This document shows positions 5,981-24,835 of a stretch of 30,531 nt of DNA, one piece after another. The first letter of the stretch is position 1. Every line of letters begins with the position of its first letter. The position numbers were made by a program, and so were the translations under genes. The stretch covers positions 1 to 30,531 of IMG/VR virus record IMGVR_UViG_3300031758_000375; one strand, given 5' to 3'. The DNA comes from a virus. The notes under the pieces are model-generated. The model did no database searches. It had not been told where the DNA came from and was given only the letters and a program-made list of their open reading frames with translations.

Positions 5981-7246
5981 ATGAAAGAAATCGATAACAT
6001 AGTAAAAAAAGTTTTATTGGAGTCTCTAAACGAGAAGGCTGATGAAATTACACAGAAAATACAAGAGAAAATTTCAGGTGAAATGGAAGAAGCTGAATGT
6101 AAGGAAGGTGACTGCGGTGAAATGAAAGAGATAGGATTTAAACAAGGTCTTGCAAAAGCTGCTCGCAAAAAATTCGGCAAAACTCCAAAAAGTTTAGAAG
6201 ATAAATTTCATTTGTCTGATTTTGAAGATGACGACGATATGACTGATATTATGTCAGGAGAGTTTGATTATGTTGCCGAGGATGAATGCACGGAAGGTAA
6301 TTGCGGTGAAATGGAAGAAGAACTTCACGGAAATCAAAGTAAAATAGATGTTGCGCCACCAAAGGGTAAGATTACAAAAGCTGATTTTGATAAGTTAAGA
6401 GATATGAAGGAAGATTACACTGAAATGGAAGAAGGTAATGCTTTTTTGAAGAAACTTAAAGATACCCCAAAGGGAGGAGAGTTTAAATTAGGAGGTAAAA
6501 CTTATACTGATACATCTGATTTAGAGGAGTCTTTCAAATACTCAATTCAGTTTGATGGTGAGGAATTAGTTTTAACTGAAAATGAACTTATTACAATGAT
6601 TGAAGAAATTGTTCTCGAAGAAAAGAAAACTAATCTAAAATCACCTGGTAAGTCAAAGGGTATGGTTGAATACGATAGAGTTCACAAAAAAGATGAAGAT
6701 ATCAATAAGAAGGCTAACAAAGAATCTTTCAAAAAAATGAAAGAGTATGTCGAAGCCGGCTCAAAGGGTAGTTTTGAGACCAATCCAAAACACTTCCCAA
6801 AAGGTAATGGTGAACTTGCTAAGATGGATAAAAAGGCTTATAAAGCTTCAGAAGCCGTTGAGGAATATGTTGATACATTTGCATATGGTGGTGGTATGTT
6901 GGATTTAGACCCGGGTGAAATTGGTTACAATGAAGATTGGTTGGAAAAAACAATCGAAGGTTCGTCTATGACTGGTAACTCACCTGAATACGCAAATGCG
7001 GTTGATACAGGTTATGGTAAAAAATTAAATAAGAGAAGAAAGGAAAATCTTTACAACAAAGAAAAGAGACAAAATAGTTATAAGAGATTTAATCAACCTG
7101 TTGATGTTGCTGGTGAAAAAACAAAATCAGGTAAATTAGATAAAATGTTTAAATCACTTGGAGAATCGGAAGAAAAAGAAGAGATTGTATCTGAAGAGAT
7201 GATAAGAATGAAAGAACTTTTATCTTATAACAAGAAAACACAATAA
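5981..7246 (+). CDS. Acidic repeat-containing protein with candidate capsid-targeting leader
   Basis: A 421-residue, highly charged protein. The N-terminus MKEIDNIVKKVLLESL is a basic amphipathic helix ending in L12-L13-E14, matching the [L/I]-x-E consensus of T4-type prohead protease sites. Two diverged repeats follow at 32-50 (SGEMEEAECKEGDCGEMKE) and 92-113 (SGEF, then ECTEGNCGEMEE), each with a CxxxxC pair (C40/C45 and C103/C108) that could bind metal or form disulfides. The same SGEMEE string occurs in the preceding protein, hinting at common ancestry or assembly. The C-terminal part (about 225-400) is Lys/Gly/Asn-rich with YAYGGG-like turns and is probably extended. Its acidic, low-complexity character recalls prohead core (scaffold) or internal proteins. 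It has its own promoter at 5958 and ends before the hairpin terminator at 7274. Confidence 0.75.
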   Translation: MKEIDNIVKKVLLESLNEKADEITQKIQEKISGEMEEAECKEGDCGEMKEIGFKQGLAKAARKKFGKTPKSLEDKFHLSDFEDDDDMTDIMSGEFDYVAEDECTEGNCGEMEEELHGNQSKIDVAPPKGKITKADFDKLRDMKEDYTEMEEGNAFLKKLKDTPKGGEFKLGGKTYTDTSDLEESFKYSIQFDGEELVLTENELITMIEEIVLEEKKTNLKSPGKSKGMVEYDRVHKKDEDINKKANKESFKKMKEYVEAGSKGSFETNPKHFPKGNGELAKMDKKAYKASEAVEEYVDTFAYGGGMLDLDPGEIGYNEDWLEKTIEGSSMTGNSPEYANAVDTGYGKKLNKRRKENLYNKEKRQNSYKRFNQPVDVAGEKTKSGKLDKMFKSLGESEEKEEIVSEEMIRMKELLSYNKKTQ

Positions 7247-15821: not shown

Positions 15822-17183
15822 ATGAAATTTACCAACATTTTAAAGTCTATTATCTTAGAAAACTCAAGATTCAAGGTTCTTTACGATAGTCTCGTACAAC
15901 AACCATCACCTGAAGGAAAGTTTAAACCGGACCCAAAGAAAATACCTTTTGAAACTTTAAAAGCGTTAATCTTTGCTGACCCTACAACTATTGTCCCAAG
16001 AGGTGCTGAGTTCGATGTTGATACTGCGGCAGTTGCAGATATGGAAAAAGTGAAAGTTGGTAAATACACTAACTGGCTCATTAAGAATTTTATGAAGCCT
16101 GTTAATATCGAGGCGAATCCTGAAGACCCAAGAGCATATGCTCAAGCCCTGAAAGCTTATCAGAATTTGTTTATGGAGGACCTTTACAAAGTAACAGGTG
16201 ACCTTAAAAAATACGAAAGGTTTAAGAATACATTCCCACAAGAGAAAAGGGATATTGCAAAACTCTCAAAAGAAGATGTTTATCAACTTACAAAAGATTT
16301 GAGTTTAGATAAAACTAAGGCATCTAAAGCTGAGAAAGAAGAGGCTAAGAAAAGTTACGAACACCCTGGTTCCACTGTTGTTTTCCGTGGCTCAACTTGG
16401 ACCGTAATTAAAATTGAAGGTACTTCTGAACTTCAAAAAGATGCGGCTTGTTTCTATGGTGGTTATCACCAACCTGAGAAAGGGGAATCAAGATGGTGTA
16501 CTTCATATACATTAGAAGGTTCTGAGTGGTGGAAGCGATATTTGTCAAAAGGACCACTTTATGTAATCCTTCCAAACGAATCTTCAGAAGTTGGGCAAAT
16601 GACAGGTCTTCCAGTTGAAAGATATCAGTTCCACTTCCCTGACCAGCAGTTTATGGATAGACACGACGTTCAACAAAATTTGGTTGATTTATTAAATGGT
16701 AAACTTAAAGAGCTTAAAGATTACTTCAAGCCTGAGTTTGCAAAAGGTCTTGTTTCTAAAGGAGAAAAGAAAGTAAACATCCAAATCCCTGAGGGTGCCG
16801 CTGGTAAGTTCATCGCTCTTTATGGGGCTGAAGAAATTTTTGATAATCTTCCAGATGACATCGTAAGTATGATTATTGAAAACAAAAAGACTAACGCAAC
16901 AATTAAAATCCCACCATCAATTTCAAGATTCCAAAACTTGGAAACTCTTATGTTGGATAATGTTATTGATAGTTTACCTGATGAAGTTTCTTATTGTAAG
17001 TCACTTAACTTCTTGTCATTACCAAATAATAAGTCTTTGAAATCACTTCCTGATAGTATTGGAACAATGGATAATCTTTCGTTTGTTAATATCTCAGGTT
17101 GTGACCCATCACTTAGAATTCCTGATTCGATTGCTGATAAGTTTGACGACATTGGTAACGGTTTATATTTCAAGAAGGACTAA
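15822..17183 (+). CDS. LRR-containing protein with RWCTSY/QFMD domain and candidate capsid-targeting leader
   Basis: A 453-residue three-part protein. The N-terminus MKFTNILKSIILENSRF is a basic amphipathic leader with I11-L12-E13 as a possible prohead-protease site. The middle domain (about 180-290) contains RWCTSY (224-229), GPLYVI (244-249) and YQFHFPDQQFMDRHD (268-282). I have an impression of this block from other large phages but know no function for it; the invariant-looking Trp-Cys and His/Asp residues could form an active site. The C-terminus (about 355-440) has at least three leucine-rich repeats (LETLMLDNVIDSLPDEVSYC, LNFLSLPNNKSLKSLPDSIG, LSFVNISGCDP), a protein-binding solenoid. 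Its own TATTTATA promoter suggests late expression. A packaged or injected effector with an LRR recognition module is one reading; a head accessory protein is another. Confidence 0.75.
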   Translation: MKFTNILKSIILENSRFKVLYDSLVQQPSPEGKFKPDPKKIPFETLKALIFADPTTIVPRGAEFDVDTAAVADMEKVKVGKYTNWLIKNFMKPVNIEANPEDPRAYAQALKAYQNLFMEDLYKVTGDLKKYERFKNTFPQEKRDIAKLSKEDVYQLTKDLSLDKTKASKAEKEEAKKSYEHPGSTVVFRGSTWTVIKIEGTSELQKDAACFYGGYHQPEKGESRWCTSYTLEGSEWWKRYLSKGPLYVILPNESSEVGQMTGLPVERYQFHFPDQQFMDRHDVQQNLVDLLNGKLKELKDYFKPEFAKGLVSKGEKKVNIQIPEGAAGKFIALYGAEEIFDNLPDDIVSMIIENKKTNATIKIPPSISRFQNLETLMLDNVIDSLPDEVSYCKSLNFLSLPNNKSLKSLPDSIGTMDNLSFVNISGCDPSLRIPDSIADKFDDIGNGLYFKKD

Positions 17184-19204: not shown

Positions 19205-19514
19205 TAAAGAAAGTGTAATTTATGCTGATAAACCAAATGCTAGTGTCCTCATATATAATGACACCCACGGATTTACACCTGAAATTCTGGTAACAAAAAA
19301 GAATGTTGTTGGAATATATCAAAATTCTACAATCAAAGATAAAAAAGAATTGATTTTGGAGTATATTTGTAGAGTCCAAGGAATGTATTACATATACTTG
19401 ACATTGGATACAACAATCAAGTTAGAGGATGGGAATAGTTATAAAATGAGACTCTATTATGATTATAATGATAGGCAACAAATAAATTTATTATTAACAA
19501 GTTTAAAGAAATGA
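19185..19514 (+). CDS. Hypothetical small protein
   Basis: A 109-residue beta-rich protein (SVLIYNDTHGFTPEILVTKK, VVGIYQNSTIKDKKELIL, MYYIYLTLDTTIKLEDGN, KMRLYYDYNDRQQINLLLTS). No known motif. It starts 20 nt inside the PcfJ-like gene and overlaps the thioredoxin gene by 4 nt (ATGA), so it belongs to a co-translated run of five genes ending at 20603. Confidence 0.65.
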   Translation: MDFPSFDKESVIYADKPNASVLIYNDTHGFTPEILVTKKNVVGIYQNSTIKDKKELILEYICRVQGMYYIYLTLDTTIKLEDGNSYKMRLYYDYNDRQQINLLLTSLKK

Positions 19515-19810
19515 AAGAAATATCAGTTAGTGAATTAAAACAAAAAATTCAAAATAAGGAGACCATGCTTGTTAGCTTCAGTGCTAGCTGGTGTGGCCCC
19601 TGCAAGATGCTCAAAGAAGAATTAAAGAAGGTAGAATCATCAACCCCCATCTATAAAATTGATGTTGAGGAAGATATTGATTTTTCAAGACAGTATAGTG
19701 TTCGTTCAGTCCCAACTATGAAAATGTTTAAAGAAGGTAGTGTTATTAGCACAACAGTTGGACTTAGAAGTGCCCCTGAGATTAATAAACTTATAACAGA
19801 AAGTGTATAA
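19511..19810 (+). CDS. trx: Thioredoxin
   Basis: A 99-residue thioredoxin-fold protein with the classical active site WCGPC (27-31) after the strand MLVSFSAS, and the cis-proline in SVPT (P68). Length is close to the family minimum of about 105, with a shortened first helix. It reduces disulfides in the cytoplasm. In phages it can serve ribonucleotide reductase or act as a DNA polymerase processivity partner. The adjoining glutaredoxin favours the first role, although no reductase gene is in this window. It has a 4-nt overlap upstream (ATGA) and a 1-nt overlap downstream (TAATG). Confidence 0.93.
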   Translation: MKEISVSELKQKIQNKETMLVSFSASWCGPCKMLKEELKKVESSTPIYKIDVEEDIDFSRQYSVRSVPTMKMFKEGSVISTTVGLRSAPEINKLITESV

Positions 19811-20079
19811 TGAAACAGCTTGTAGTTTTCTCAATGGAGGGATGCCCTCATTGTCAAGAATTTAAAAAAATCTTGTCTGAAAATAGTGTAGAATATGTGA
19901 ACAGAGATATCCACGAACACTCAGAAGAATATCAAATGTTTGCAAGAGTTAAAAATGATTTGGTACCGGCATTTATGATTGTCGATGGTGACGATACAAC
20001 AAAATCAGGACTCTTCGCACCCGACCAAGATTATGCAACATTAGAAGAAGCGTTGAACATTATCAAAGAAAAACTTTGA
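19810..20079 (+). CDS. Glutaredoxin-like protein
   Basis: An 89-residue glutaredoxin-fold protein with the dithiol site CPHC (12-15) after LVVFSMEG and the cis-proline segment LVPAF (51-55). The length is typical of NrdH/glutaredoxins. It would supply electrons to ribonucleotide reductase or reduce glutathione-free thiol substrates; CPHC is unusual for NrdH (CxQC) and closer to Grx/DsbA-like sites. Overlaps by one base upstream and by four bases downstream (TTGA). Confidence 0.9.
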   Translation: MKQLVVFSMEGCPHCQEFKKILSENSVEYVNRDIHEHSEEYQMFARVKNDLVPAFMIVDGDDTTKSGLFAPDQDYATLEEALNIIKEKL

Positions 20080-20603
20080 AAGAATTAATTTTTAGAAGAA
20101 AAGGTATTACACACGAGCCCGTTAACCATTGGAAAATGGAAAACGGGGTCGTTGTTGCCATTTATCAAGGGGCAAGAGGGGCAAGACCTGACCTTGATTT
20201 TATTGTTAAGTATAAACAACAGGGAAAGAGACTTAGGGCTCCTTCTCACACCCATTGGATTGTGGACTTACTCATCAAGTCTGAATACCACTCTCATCTT
20301 GTTTGTCAGTATATTACAGAATGGATTGAACTTTACGAACAGCTTGAACCATTCCAAAGCGTAGATGAAAGGAATACTTACAAGTTGATTTATAATCTAA
20401 ATCATGCAACAAAGTATGAGGAACTTAGTTCAGAAGGTGGATATCCGATTGAGATTCTATCAACCTTTATTGAACTGTTTATCCGTTGCGAGAAACAAAC
20501 ACCTGGTGCCTTTATGTTTAAAGGACTCCTCAAACTTATGAAAGAGTATTGTGAGGGTAAAAAGGACTTCTACCAGGTTGTTGGACACTCAAAAAGAGTT
20601 TAG
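20076..20603 (+). CDS. Hypothetical protein with TTG start
   Basis: A 175-residue protein that begins at TTG 20076, forming a TTGA overlap with the glutaredoxin stop in the same way other pairs here use ATGA. The first in-frame ATG would remove 20 residues, including the strand KELIFRRKGITHEPVNHW. It has conserved-looking basic and aromatic residues (GARGARPDLDFIVKYKQQGK, RLRAPSHTHWIVDLLI) and is helical after residue 60. Two histidines in SHTHW and another in SEYHSHLV could be metal ligands, which might mark a nuclease, but no complete catalytic signature is present. Its stop is convergent with the minus-strand gene at 20600 (4-nt overlap). Confidence 0.7.
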   Translation: MKELIFRRKGITHEPVNHWKMENGVVVAIYQGARGARPDLDFIVKYKQQGKRLRAPSHTHWIVDLLIKSEYHSHLVCQYITEWIELYEQLEPFQSVDERNTYKLIYNLNHATKYEELSSEGGYPIEILSTFIELFIRCEKQTPGAFMFKGLLKLMKEYCEGKKDFYQVVGHSKRV

Positions 20604-21307
20604 ATTACTCTAAACTCCGAATTCTCTTTAATAATAAACCAAGGTGAATTTTGTATAGAGTAAGAGAGTTCTCTTACTAAGTCCTGTTCTTTAATTAATT
20701 CATTAATCTCTGAAACATTCATTTCGAAATTATCATAGATTATGGACTTTAGAACGGTAGGTGGGTAAACTGAGTTAGATAGAATATCAACAATTTTAAC
20801 ACCTCCTCTAATATCTTCTTCTACCGTAAGTTCAATGAACGTATATCCAAAATGGTCCTGTACGTTATAAATAATATGTTCTAAATAGAAATAAAGATTC
20901 TTTAAATAGTTCTTAGAAAAACCATAAGGAAACTCAGAAGACACAATCGGGGTATTAACCACATTCATATCAAATTTTGGAAATTGAACGTCCCTCTCGA
21001 AATGAAATTTTAATCTTTTTTCTTTAAACTTCTTTTCTTCACCAAATGTTATCATATCCAAAGTACTAACCTTCTGTAAGTCTGTAAATGAAAATTCGGA
21101 CCAGTATTTTGAAATGAATTTGTTAACAATGTCTTTAACATCAACAATGTCCTCTCTTTTTGTATAACCTTTAATTAGGATTAATGTGTCACAATCTGAA
21201 ACGGAAATCATTGTCTCATATTTTCCATTTTGACTTATTTCTTCTGAAACGTATTCGGCAAATAAATTGCAAAGACCTTGTCTCGAGTTAGTTTTGTATC
21301 TTCTCAT
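20600..21307 (-). CDS. Hypothetical protein, minus strand
   Basis: A 235-residue protein. The N-terminus (RQGLCNLFAEYVSEEISQNG, MISVSDCDTLILIKGYTKRE, VDVKDIVNKFISKYW) has the feel of an S-adenosylmethionine-synthetase-like alpha/beta unit, but the key MetK motifs (HPD, GDQG) are absent, so I do not assign it. The C-terminal half is mixed, with FGYTFIELTVEEDIRGGVKI near 160. Upstream on its strand is CATTTATA (plus 21337-21344), one mismatch from the late motif, 29 nt from the ATG. It ends convergently with the 20076 gene. Confidence 0.7.
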   Translation of the reverse strand: MRRYKTNSRQGLCNLFAEYVSEEISQNGKYETMISVSDCDTLILIKGYTKREDIVDVKDIVNKFISKYWSEFSFTDLQKVSTLDMITFGEEKKFKEKRLKFHFERDVQFPKFDMNVVNTPIVSSEFPYGFSKNYLKNLYFYLEHIIYNVQDHFGYTFIELTVEEDIRGGVKIVDILSNSVYPPTVLKSIIYDNFEMNVSEINELIKEQDLVRELSYSIQNSPWFIIKENSEFRVI

Positions 21308-21348: not shown

Positions 21349-22497
21349 TTAGAAATAACTTTCCACATTCTCACTCATACACTTATTCATTTTACTCCAA
21401 TCAGGATAATCATCTAATCTTGGAACATCAAGCCAATCCATTGGACCATATTCCATTGCATCTTTTATTAATGATGTGTAACTACCAAAATACTCTATTG
21501 TATTATTATTGTAACCATTTTTAAAGTTATTTTCTTTAAGCCATCCAGTTATAATATCTTTTAAACATTTGGTTACTTTGTATCTTCGACCATAAGCGGT
21601 CTTAGTTCCCCTTGTTCCATCTTTTTGCCAAACAGATTTTTGATATGAATAATCCTCACCATCTTTACTATCCACAACTACACCAACAAGTTCACCCCAT
21701 AACTCGTTATGCCATTGACTAATTAAAATATCACCATAACAAGTCGAATAAATACTATTTAAATTACCTCTAAATTCGTCTAATTCTCTATTAATTAAGT
21801 ATTCTAAACTTTTTTCGTCGGTCATCAAACGAGTTATTACTTCATCTGTTAATTTAATTTCCTTTTCAGTTCCTTGTTCTTCGGCAATCTCCTCAAATAA
21901 ATCGGGTGTTCTCTTATACTGAGAAAATTTCAGAGTTCCCATCGATTTTAATTCATTGACGATATATTCATCGACAACACTTTTAGCGTAGTGGTCTAAA
22001 TTACTATATACATCATTATACTCATCATCAGTATCATAACCTCCATAACTCCAAGGGTCATACTCACCACTTAATATGCTTTCAATTGTACCTGTTCTAA
22101 AATCTCTAGTTCTGAATAAGTCCTCAAGTTCTGAATAATCAGCATCATAATAATAATCCTCACCAATTTTGGTAATACCATTTAAATAAGTTAAAGCAAT
22201 TGAATAAACAAAGTCAGGGTCATTTTGAGCAAAGGCATGTAATAATAAATTTTGAATGTCCTCAAACTCACGCTTGAATGGGTCAAGATTATACAAAAAT
22301 CCCTTTTTAGTAATAAAAGAAATAAATGACTCAAGTGAACCAAAAAGTCTTGCAACTGTATCAAGTTCCATATCACCATCATTGATTTTGTTAATCATAT
22401 TCAAAACCTTTAAATCTGACGGAGACATTTTCTTTTCTTCTTCTTCACGTAAAACTCTAATAATTGTTTCTTTAAGATTACTCTTTTTCAAATTCAT
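21349..22497 (-). CDS. Acidic protein with candidate capsid-targeting leader, minus strand
   Basis: A 382-residue, strongly acidic protein (many D/E/Y, for example EDYYYDADYSELEDLF and GGYDTDDEYNDVYSN). The N-terminus MNLKKSNLKETIIRVLREEE is a basic amphipathic helix ending in L16-R17-E18, as in the other leader-bearing genes. The remainder is mostly helical to residue 260, then a compact region with TCYGDILISQWHNELWGELV and a basic strand segment before a final aromatic stretch. No family recognised. It has its own TATTTATA box 3 nt before the ATG, preceded by a terminator, so it is an independent unit. Surface acidity suits a DNA-mimic or internal head protein, which is speculation. Confidence 0.7.
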   Translation of the reverse strand: MNLKKSNLKETIIRVLREEEEKKMSPSDLKVLNMINKINDGDMELDTVARLFGSLESFISFITKKGFLYNLDPFKREFEDIQNLLLHAFAQNDPDFVYSIALTYLNGITKIGEDYYYDADYSELEDLFRTRDFRTGTIESILSGEYDPWSYGGYDTDDEYNDVYSNLDHYAKSVVDEYIVNELKSMGTLKFSQYKRTPDLFEEIAEEQGTEKEIKLTDEVITRLMTDEKSLEYLINRELDEFRGNLNSIYSTCYGDILISQWHNELWGELVGVVVDSKDGEDYSYQKSVWQKDGTRGTKTAYGRRYKVTKCLKDIITGWLKENNFKNGYNNNTIEYFGSYTSLIKDAMEYGPMDWLDVPRLDDYPDWSKMNKCMSENVESYF

Positions 22498-22500
22498 ACT

Positions 22501-22508
22501 TATAAATA
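22501..22508 (-). promoter_or_regulatory. TATTTATA putative late promoter for the 22497 gene
   Basis: Reads TATAAATA on the plus strand, TATTTATA in coding direction, 3 nt before the ATG. It directly follows the T-tract of the terminator at 22511-22535. Confidence 0.6.
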
Positions 22509-22510
22509 TT

Positions 22511-22535
22511 AAAAAAGGGGGAAATTTTCCCCCTT
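22511..22535 (-). terminator. Intrinsic terminator fused to the downstream promoter
   Basis: On the minus strand: AAGGGGGAAA pairing with TTTCCCCCTT, then a TTTTTT tract that runs straight into the TATTTATA box. It ends the short unit carrying the 11-codon ORF. Confidence 0.8.
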
Positions 22536-22565
22536 AGTAATCTAGATTAAATTTTGTGTTTGGAA

Positions 22566-22601
22566 TTACTTTCCACAACCACAACCACCACCTTTTTTCA
22601 T
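22566..22601 (-). CDS. Candidate 11-codon ORF, Cys/Gly-rich micropeptide
   Basis: The minus strand encodes MKKGGGCGCGK and then TAA. It is the only ORF in a unit that has its own TATTTATA box (22631-22638) and its own terminator (22511-22535), giving a predicted transcript of about 110 nt. The leader of 29 nt is longer than for the other TATTTATA genes. The GCGC core is echoed in the neighbouring small protein (MSCGCK), which supports a real peptide, possibly metal- or thiol-active. The alternative is that the unit makes a small non-coding RNA and the ORF is incidental. Confidence 0.45.
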   Translation of the reverse strand: MKKGGGCGCGK

Positions 22602-22630
22602 AGTACTATATTTTTTAATGGTTTATTACT

Positions 22631-22638
22631 TATAAATA
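22631..22638 (-). promoter_or_regulatory. TATTTATA putative late promoter for the short unit
   Basis: TATATTTATA in minus orientation, immediately after the T-tract of the terminator at 22640-22665 and 29 nt before the 11-codon ORF. Confidence 0.55.
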
Positions 22639-22639
22639 T

Positions 22640-22665
22640 AAAAAAAGAGGGAATAATCCCTCTTT
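22640..22665 (-). terminator. Intrinsic terminator, possibly bidirectional
   Basis: AAAGAGGGA (22644-22652), loop of 4, TCCCTCTTT (22657-22665). A seven-T tract follows on the minus strand and a broken T-tract on the plus strand. It ends the transcript of the 22698 gene and adjoins the next promoter. Confidence 0.8.
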
Positions 22666-22688
22666 CTTTTTGACTAGTCTGAAATATA

Positions 22689-22709
22689 ACAAAAGGTTTA
22701 ACCTTTTGT
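22689..22709. repeat. Perfect 10-bp palindrome over the stop of the 22698 gene
   Basis: ACAAAAGGTT, one base, AACCTTTTGT, followed on the plus strand by TTTTTT. It includes the minus-strand stop codon (22698-22700). It may act as a plus-strand terminator for antisense transcription or as a protein-binding site. Confidence 0.6.
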
Positions 22710-22841
22710 TTTTTGTTGGTAGTATTTCTCGATAGTCTGGTTAACAGCTTGTTGAACGTTCTCGTTCTGCTGTTGTGGAGCTTGTTGGCCTTGTGGCTGA
22801 ACAGGCTGTGTTTGTTGGTTGTTTTTGCATCCGCAAGACAT
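22698..22841 (-). CDS. Small Cys- and Gln-rich protein (MSCGC...)
   Basis: A 47-residue protein that opens MSCGCKNNQQTQPVQ, continues with a Gln/Pro-rich tract (about 9-30) and closes with a helix NQTIEKYYQQKTKG. The C3/C5 pair next to the start and the Gln-rich linker suggest a tethered or metal-touched N-terminus followed by a helical binding tail. I have an impression of similar MSCGC peptides in other large Bacteroidota-type phages, but no function is known to me. It follows the GIY-YIG gene on the same strand (16-nt gap) and is terminated at 22640-22665. Confidence 0.7.
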   Translation of the reverse strand: MSCGCKNNQQTQPVQPQGQQAPQQQNENVQQAVNQTIEKYYQQKTKG

Positions 22842-22857
22842 AGACAATTTATTTATT

Positions 22858-23445
22858 TTAGTTTATTATTTCAAACTTGTGTTTATAACAAGTTTTTCTT
22901 ATACTACCTTTGTGCCCATTATTTAATTTCACTCCTCTGAGGCTCGAAGATAATTTCATTCTAACACTACGTTTCTTTCCTTTTGAAAACCCGTTATCAA
23001 TTAAATAGTTTGCGGCATCTACTAAGTTATCAAACTCATTTATTTTATCAGTTTCTATTTCGATAAGTCTGAACTTATTAAAATTTCCATTTTTATTTAA
23101 ATTGTGTTTTGATAAATTTTTTTTAACAATCTCATTTAAATTATTTCTTCTTGATTCTGTCACCTTTGCAAGGTTAAATCCAAATTCACTATCAATTGAT
23201 TTATATTTTTCAATATAATAATTTTCTTTTTCAACTAATAAGTCGTACTCACAATTCTCTAAAATTTCAAATTTAAAGTTTTCTTCACCAAATTTATTGT
23301 AAGAATTTTGTAGATGTTGATTATCGTGTATTCCCCTTTCCAACATCCAAAAATGTTTATATCTTCTATCCTTTAAATTTATAGAACTGCCAATATAGAC
23401 TTTATCATCTAAAATATTTTTTATTAAGTAAATTCCTGAGTCCAT
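22858..23445 (-). CDS. GIY-YIG homing-type endonuclease
   Basis: A 195-residue free-standing GIY-YIG nuclease (Seg/I-TevI-like). The catalytic module spans about 1-95: GIYLIKN (4-10) and VYIGSS (16-21) form the GIY-YIG signature, the basic KDRRYKHF (25-32) carries the conserved Arg, and the metal-binding Glu is probably in LVEKENYYIEKY (70-81). The C-terminus (about 130-195) has a NUMOD-like DNA-binding pattern (FDNLVDAANYLIDNG, then RSVRMKLSSSLRG). Such enzymes cut related genomes and spread themselves; no intron is apparent around it. It has its own TATTTATA box 4 nt before the ATG, unusual for a mobile gene, and is lower in G+C by eye than its neighbours. Confidence 0.92.
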   Translation of the reverse strand: MDSGIYLIKNILDDKVYIGSSINLKDRRYKHFWMLERGIHDNQHLQNSYNKFGEENFKFEILENCEYDLLVEKENYYIEKYKSIDSEFGFNLAKVTESRRNNLNEIVKKNLSKHNLNKNGNFNKFRLIEIETDKINEFDNLVDAANYLIDNGFSKGKKRSVRMKLSSSLRGVKLNNGHKGSIRKTCYKHKFEIIN

Positions 23446-23521: not shown

Positions 23522-24835
23522 ATGAACTTACTTAAAACTATCCATAAGATATTAAAAGAAGAAACTGAAGGAGACGATATAGTAAAAGTTACTCCTGATG
23601 ACATTTATCATTACGCGAAAATAATGTCAGGTAATCTACAAGGATTATCAAAGGTACCCGCATATAGAGGTAAAAAGTTAGTTGTTGTTGGGAAACTTGA
23701 TTTATCCGACTTTCCGAAGGTAAAAAATTTAGGACCAATTATAGAAGTAACAGGAGGGTTAGATATCTCTGATACGGAAATTGCTTCTTTAGAGGGAGTT
23801 AAAACTCACGGATATGTTAGAGACTATAACTCTAAAATGTATAGAATAAGAATTACAAAAATAGAAGCTGAAATTAGAGCAAAAGCTCAGTCAAGAAGAG
23901 AAAGTGGAGAATGGGATGATATTACTGATGGATATAATGCAAAAGCACGAGCTCTTTTTGAATACCTAAAAGGTAGAGACGACCTACAAGATAGACCTGA
24001 AAATTTACAAGAAAAGATTGATGAGTTAGAAGATAGAAAATCACAACTTGAGCAGATGCAAGCTCAACTTGATGATAATAGTGAAGAATATGATAGACTA
24101 GAAGGTCAAATAGCCGCTGTAGAAACTGAAATTGAAGAACTTAACGATGGAAAATTTGGTGATGTTTATGATTTAATACCTGATGGAAATATGTATGGAC
24201 TTGCATCATTCCAATCAAAACTCCCCGAGTCACTTAATGAAGAATATTTTATTGGAACAGAAAGAGAAGTTGAAAGGGCGTTTGAAGATTATTGGGAACA
24301 ATATGTTAATGATGTTGGAGTTGAAGGATTCAGTGAATGGGTAATTAAAGATAATTTGGATGAAGATAGATTAAGAAGTGATATTGAAGATGTTTATGAA
24401 AATGATATTAGAGATAATCCCGAGTCATATCTTGATGAGTCTGACAGAGAATTAAGTAGTTCCCAAGAAGAAGAAATACAAAGATTAGAGCGAGAAAAAG
24501 ACGAACTTGAAGAACTTAATGATGGAAATGAAGAAACCACAGATAGAATTTCAGAAATAGAATCTGAAATTGAAGAAATTAATGATTCACCAGAAGGTGA
24601 TTTTAAAGAAGAGGCTATAGAATATAAGATAGCTGATACGGTTGACTATTATATGAACAACTACGATGAATATTTTAGTAATATGGGTAGTAGTATTGGT
24701 GATTATCTTGACAAAGATAGTCTTGTTGAGTATCTTGTTAATAACGAGGATTATGGTCAAATGTCAAGCTATGACTCAAGTTACGACACTGAAAGATTTA
24801 ATGACAAACTATATTACATTTTTAGACACAACTAA
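23522..24835 (+). CDS. Coiled-coil protein with short LRR-like segment and candidate capsid-targeting leader
   Basis: A 437-residue very acidic protein. The leader MNLLKTIHKILKEETEG is basic and amphipathic with L11-K12-E13 as a possible prohead-protease site. Residues about 50-95 (KKLVVVGKLDLSDFPKVKNL, VTGGLDISDTEIASLEGV) read as two or three leucine-rich or beta-helix turns. Two coiled coils follow (about 160-205 and 310-350), each with a near-repeat IEELNDGKFGD/LEELNDGNEETT. Between them lies a helical, Asp/Glu/Tyr-rich stretch. Leader, solenoid and strong acidity link it to the genes at 15822 and 21349. It shares one base with the next gene (TAATG). Function unknown; an internal virion protein is the working idea. 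Confidence 0.72.
   Translation: MNLLKTIHKILKEETEGDDIVKVTPDDIYHYAKIMSGNLQGLSKVPAYRGKKLVVVGKLDLSDFPKVKNLGPIIEVTGGLDISDTEIASLEGVKTHGYVRDYNSKMYRIRITKIEAEIRAKAQSRRESGEWDDITDGYNAKARALFEYLKGRDDLQDRPENLQEKIDELEDRKSQLEQMQAQLDDNSEEYDRLEGQIAAVETEIEELNDGKFGDVYDLIPDGNMYGLASFQSKLPESLNEEYFIGTEREVERAFEDYWEQYVNDVGVEGFSEWVIKDNLDEDRLRSDIEDVYENDIRDNPESYLDESDRELSSSQEEEIQRLEREKDELEELNDGNEETTDRISEIESEIEEINDSPEGDFKEEAIEYKIADTVDYYMNNYDEYFSNMGSSIGDYLDKDSLVEYLVNNEDYGQMSSYDSSYDTERFNDKLYYIFRHN

Follow-up and report, generated by a model that had tools for sequence, protein, structure and literature searches.

An ultra-short microprotein gene of uncultured phages and its possible link to a small CGC protein encoded next to it

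The window, that is, the whole stretch of DNA that was analysed, is a 30.5-kb IMG/VR virus record, and it is a fragment. It contains a unit which consists, from 5' to 3', of a promoter-like box, an unstructured leader of ~25 nt, 11 codons and an intrinsic terminator (Table 1). The ORF reads ATG AAA AAA GGT GGT GGT TGT GGT TGT GGA AAG TAA. The two terminators, the box and the 11-codon ORF that a sequence-only reading had described on the minus strand are all present where it had placed them, and the protein starting with MSCGCK (F1), in which it had seen an echo of the CGC core, proves to be the conserved upstream neighbour of the micropeptide. That the unit is self-contained holds for the subclade of the window and does not extend to every relative: the upstream terminator is missing in L013, L018 and others, and in the group that has a 13-aa peptide there is no box before the micropeptide, whose ORF starts 24 nt past the F1 stop and is probably co-transcribed with F1.

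The gene order F0 (divergent), F1, micropeptide, F2, F8 and then, on the opposite strand, F10, glutaredoxin and thioredoxin is found in more than 70 loci, a synteny which, among related phages, does not count as independent evidence. The fold search with the model of F2 gave no PDB match at E ≤ 0.001. F8 (model pLDDT 71) models as a short MetK-like protein, the top Foldseek matches (E ~1e-5) being all MetK/MAT; several DNA methyltransferases are also encoded in the window. A GIY-YIG endonuclease gene lies between F0 and F1; relatives such as L005 do not have it there, which makes it a likely mobile insertion. Several otherwise unrelated proteins share a similar amphipathic N-terminal stretch (e.g. 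LKETIIRVLREEE), possibly, by analogy with T4 internal proteins, a capsid-targeting N-terminus.

Table 1. Position of the micropeptide unit and of other features in the window
Feature	Position	Strand	Basis or remark
Micropeptide gene, 11 codons, MKKGGGCGCGK, ATGAAAAAAGGTGGTGGTTGTGGTTGTGGAAAGTAA	22566..22601	-	sequence, IMG/VR family, core codons that vary at third positions only
TATTTATA box, putative -10 element of a phage promoter	22631..22638	-	enrichment, placement upstream of genes, kept in most relatives
Leader element TAATAAAC, ~27 nt 5' of the ATG, common to the F1 leader	22621..22628	-	
Downstream intrinsic terminator, hairpin + U-tract	22515..22535	-	conserved via compensatory changes
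Upstream terminator, hairpin + U-tract, ends the F1 transcript	22640..22669	-	not in all relatives
Second TATTTATA box, directly 5' of F2	22501..22508	-	
F1, 47 aa, MSCGCK start, Q/N-rich linker, helix-like C-terminal VNQTIEKYY	22698..22841	-	partner candidate
F0, conserved gene next to the cassette, divergently oriented	23522..24835	+	
F2, 382 aa, conserved downstream protein, no family	21349..22497	-	confident model, pLDDT 88.5
F8, 235 aa, conserved, anchor of the ORF-independent search	20600..21307	-	short S-adenosylmethionine-synthetase-like fold
Thioredoxin (PF00085)	19511..19810	+	Pfam
Glutaredoxin (PF00462)	19810..20079	+	Pfam
GIY-YIG endonuclease gene	22858..23445	-	
Sigma-70-like factor gene	1591..2409		
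Proteins with an amphipathic start	21349..22497, 23522..24835, 5981..7246, 15822..17183		

The window holds 17 copies of the box TATTTATA where 4.8 would be expected, and none of 100 shuffles gave as high a count. Its TATTTAT core is found at most 60 nt upstream of 12 of the 46 genes of the window, versus 2 of 46 for the reverse complement. No box was seen within 120 nt of gp23, so we refrain from calling it the late promoter. Two kinds of element recur at many gene starts of the window, the box 3–40 nt and AATAAAC ~17–30 nt before the ATG (8 of the 18 copies of AATAAAC precede genes); a sigma-70-like factor is among the proteins that the window encodes. The leaders of F1 and of the micropeptide are alike in many loci (TATTTATA..GTAATAAAC, ~25–30 nt before the ATG).

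Six further contigs came up in a first search, made with a degenerate back-translation of the peptide, but this search presupposes the peptide, and the case for coding rests on two other sets of relatives. In the first, only the leader was searched (TATTTATARGTAATAAAC, 5–30 nt, ATGAAAAA), the peptide not being used: all of the 22 contigs found run on into an ORF of 11–18 codons that reads MK...CGCGK-stop. The second is anchored on F8, ~1.3 kb downstream, through an alignment of 11 relatives whose identity to the copy of the window goes down to 28%. Of the 61 loci fetched in this way, two end before they reach the site; in the 59 that are usable the micropeptide, its 23-aa form included, is always the first short ORF past F1. 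Recognition of F1 in these loci required the CxC motif, but no untruncated locus lacked F1.

Together, these sets hold 22 distinct ORF sequences and 12 distinct peptides: MKKGGGCGCGK, MKNGGGCGCGK and MKGGGGCGCGK (11 aa), MKNGGGGCGCGK, MKNNNGGGCGCGK, MKNNGGGGCGCGK, MKNGGGNGGGCGCGK, MKNGGGNNGGGCGCGK, MKNGGGNNNGGGCGCGK, MKNNGGGNNNGGGCGCGK, MKKMKNNNGGGCGCGK, and the 23-aa form MKNNGGGNNGGGNNGGGGCGCGK. The ORFs are 11–18 or 23 codons long, with lengths that differ by whole codons, and the last eight residues, GGGCGCGK, are invariant. In the eight codons of this core, all eight third positions vary among the 22 ORFs, while the 16 first and second positions are constant; if the eight variable sites were placed at random the chance of this would be 1.4e-6, a naive figure as regards relatedness and base composition. 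The choice of codons (AAC for 85% of Asn, GGT for 72% of Gly) is like that of gp23, the capsid gene of these phages (70% and 67%), and unlike the average of the window (33% and 49%), which suggests strong expression.

As for RNA structure, RNAalifold applied to 12 diverse units returns the terminator stem only, with compensatory changes at four of its eight pairs, and no conserved structure in the leader or in the ORF. There is no Rfam match in the window, and a tRNA search of it found nothing. The sequence-only reading had hesitated between a micropeptide and a regulatory RNA; synonymous variation in the codons was expected to speak for the former, compensatory changes in stems for the latter, and conservation in relatives for either. 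The micropeptide is strongly supported: core variation is confined to third positions and the ORF is kept in 59 of 59 loci. The small RNA is unsupported, as the compensatory changes occur in the terminator stem alone. Variation at third positions only, changes of length by whole codons and retention in every usable locus together indicate that it is the peptide, not an RNA, that is preserved, and, judged from sequence, the unit is thus almost certainly a true gene that encodes an ultra-short phage microprotein.

When IMG/VR is searched for any ORF that ends in GGCGCGK-stop, 84 of the 89 stretches found are this micropeptide, a set in which the conservation of the tail is imposed by the search pattern. 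Unrelated short basic proteins of 22–54 aa (L036, L083, L046, L065 and L075) have the same end. A link to GroES, which L036, L083 and L011 had brought up, is not general: an independent search for GroES found it in 2 of 74 loci, in the same two phages. Nothing was found in support of a likeness of GGCGCGK to a Walker A motif (GxxxxGK without Ser/Thr). Five large carrier contigs encode a Gp23-type major capsid protein (E ≤ 2.4e-62), which indicates that the carriers, whose contigs reach 322 kb, are large T4-like phages. The cassette region, F1 and F8 gave no match in the cultured phages searched, be it as DNA or as protein, a short-query blast with the leader and ORF returned chance-level matches only, the 23-aa form has no match in PHROGs, and the string GGGCGCGK was not found in the literature searched. 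The single match in GTDB genomes (L095, from a Phascolarctobacterium MAG) ends in TSCGCGCGK, but this tail belongs to a longer Cys-rich ORF, which we take to resemble FeoB-associated Cys-rich membrane proteins, and the match is probably a coincidence or a convergence. It may be that the micropeptide family is present, unnamed, among the small genes of uncultured phages that Fremin et al. 2022 (Cell Rep 39:110984, cited in PMC11323111) reportedly predicted from sequence on a large scale.

The proteins of the F1 family, 41–49 aa long, start with M(G/S/A)C(G/S)CK and finish in a helix-like segment, V..AV..TI.KYY, with a linker rich in Q and N in between; none of the 32 distinct members lacks either cysteine of the N-terminal C(G/S)C. 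One F1 relative gives a single weak match in PHROGs (phrog_831, function not assigned, E 0.006). F1 is more widespread than the micropeptide and, among the matches listed for MGCGCK proteins, relatives of F1 in the same F0/F2/F8 setting with no adjoining micropeptide are common. Small proteins that start with MGCGCK (L188–L298) are, among the matches listed, very widespread in uncultured phages and in several gene contexts, including beside terminase and ClpP-like genes; those tested show no clear PHROGs family. In L253, L262 and L294, a second MGCGCKK peptide of 28–33 aa is encoded in tandem just upstream of F1, as though this subclade, too, had gained a second CGC peptide.

In the tree of F8, whose root is set by midpoint only, the loci with an adjoining micropeptide form one clade (support 100/97) that requires one change, and the simplest reading is that the micropeptide had one origin in this group of phages. 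G001, G003 and G004, which represent one phage type, have F1 and F8; in the stretches read (G001, G003), there is no micropeptide between the two. In all three contigs the micropeptide lies ~44.5 kb from F1, among different neighbours (for G003, this distance holds if the map is circular or permuted). L201, whose F1 has the same sequence as that type, has an F8 that falls outside the micropeptide clade. The relocated unit is 95% identical to those of clade members in the leader and 94–97% in the ORF, and ~60% in the 3' part. The presence of a nearly identical leader and ORF in a phage type outside the clade suggests that the unit has probably moved between phages. Horizontal transfer of the bare cassette, followed by its retention, is the best reading of these sequences, and speaks for a unit that functions by itself.

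Regarding function, we propose that the invariant C-terminus GGGCGCGK would be the working part of the peptide, and that the N-terminal MKN/GGG/NNN repeats would be a flexible spacer of variable length. The cysteines of its CGC motif and those of the N-terminal CGC of F1 may form a shared thiolate site, either a metal clasp with four cysteines or a disulfide between the chains, by which the micropeptide would join, cap or tune an assembly of F1 during infection; the site might be kept reduced by the phage thioredoxin and glutaredoxin. Invariant cysteine pairs are present in both candidate partners, and two CGC motifs bring four thiolates, enough for a site that binds zinc or another metal. We infer metal binding from the motif, and a link based on a disulfide is equally compatible with the sequence. 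A coding micropeptide gene with GGGCGCGK as its working part and a CGC thiolate site linked to F1 is, overall, what we consider the best explanation, with a probability of roughly 0.7. Taken by itself, docking on F1 through the paired CGC motifs is the likeliest of the mechanisms weighed, but a tentative proposal. Many related phages have F1 with no adjoining micropeptide, which shows that F1 does not need it, and the relocated copy implies that the two genes need not be neighbours. A full two-component system, in which a peptide of 11–23 aa with a C-terminal CGC and a protein of 41–49 aa with an N-terminal CGC would be held by a metal–thiolate joint, the peptide gene being mobile as a promoter–ORF–terminator cassette, is an idea that we regard as doubtful.

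The C-terminal GGCGCGK may also serve as a tag for docking on another protein of the phage or of the host, the peptide acting as an inhibitor, a virion cement or an assembly factor. Only the N-terminal part of the peptide is free to vary, the tail being fixed, and similar tails on short basic proteins of phages without F1, unrelated to the micropeptide (L036, L083, L046, L065), indicate that the tail may have another partner; however, the cases next to GroES are not general, and we regard this alternative as doubtful. It is unlikely that the CGC is instead a reactive dithiol which functions independently of F1, as a disulfide carrier, a scavenger or an isomerase-like cofactor with the phage thioredoxin or glutaredoxin. 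A member of these families is encoded within 3.5 kb in 28 of the 33 F1 loci (~2.5–3 kb in the window), and one phage type keeps the unit away from F1; on the contrary, the three glycines and the final lysine are as invariant as the cysteines, which goes beyond the needs of a generic thiol, and the thioredoxin/glutaredoxin neighbourhood may be plain inherited synteny.

The succession of an ORF, a terminator and a gene is also that of an attenuator, in which pausing at Cys and Gly codons of a leader peptide would control read-through into F2. We reject this mechanism as very improbable: past the terminator, F2 is in general preceded by a TATTTAT box of its own, the relocated copy keeps the unit with quite different downstream genes, the codons vary freely and the residues do not, and there is no conserved alternative anti-terminator structure. 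Least probable of all is a non-coding small RNA with an ORF that arose by chance, which a short unit with a promoter-like box and a terminator would fit, but which is at odds with the third-position-only variation, the in-frame changes of length, the retention in all 59 loci, the terminator as sole conserved structure and the lack of an Rfam match.

The micropeptide gene is a case of a very short coding gene backed by selection that is strict at the level of codons and holds in divergent genomes. Its length is below the limit of ordinary gene callers, so that annotations probably lack it, and searches anchored on a leader or on synteny can establish such genes in uncultured phages. The micropeptide also ties to the very widespread, uncharacterised family of MGCGCK proteins, and the pairing of cysteines makes possible a sharp biochemical test with synthetic peptides.

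Free-standing genes of a few codons have already been described: mccA encodes the 7-aa precursor of microcin C (PMC6495379). The sequences are unrelated and, unlike what we describe here, the product of mccA is modified at its C-terminus with a nucleotide by dedicated enzymes (PMC6495379); no genes for enzymes of this type were seen near the micropeptide unit. As for the proposed site, the CD4/CD8–Lck zinc clasp and the zinc-bridged CD4 homodimer belong to animal signalling proteins that have no homology to the phage pair, and the analogy is mechanistic only: in these complexes, short unstructured CxC tails of different molecules are bridged by a metal, in an intermolecular zinc site coordinated by cysteines (PMC12198760).
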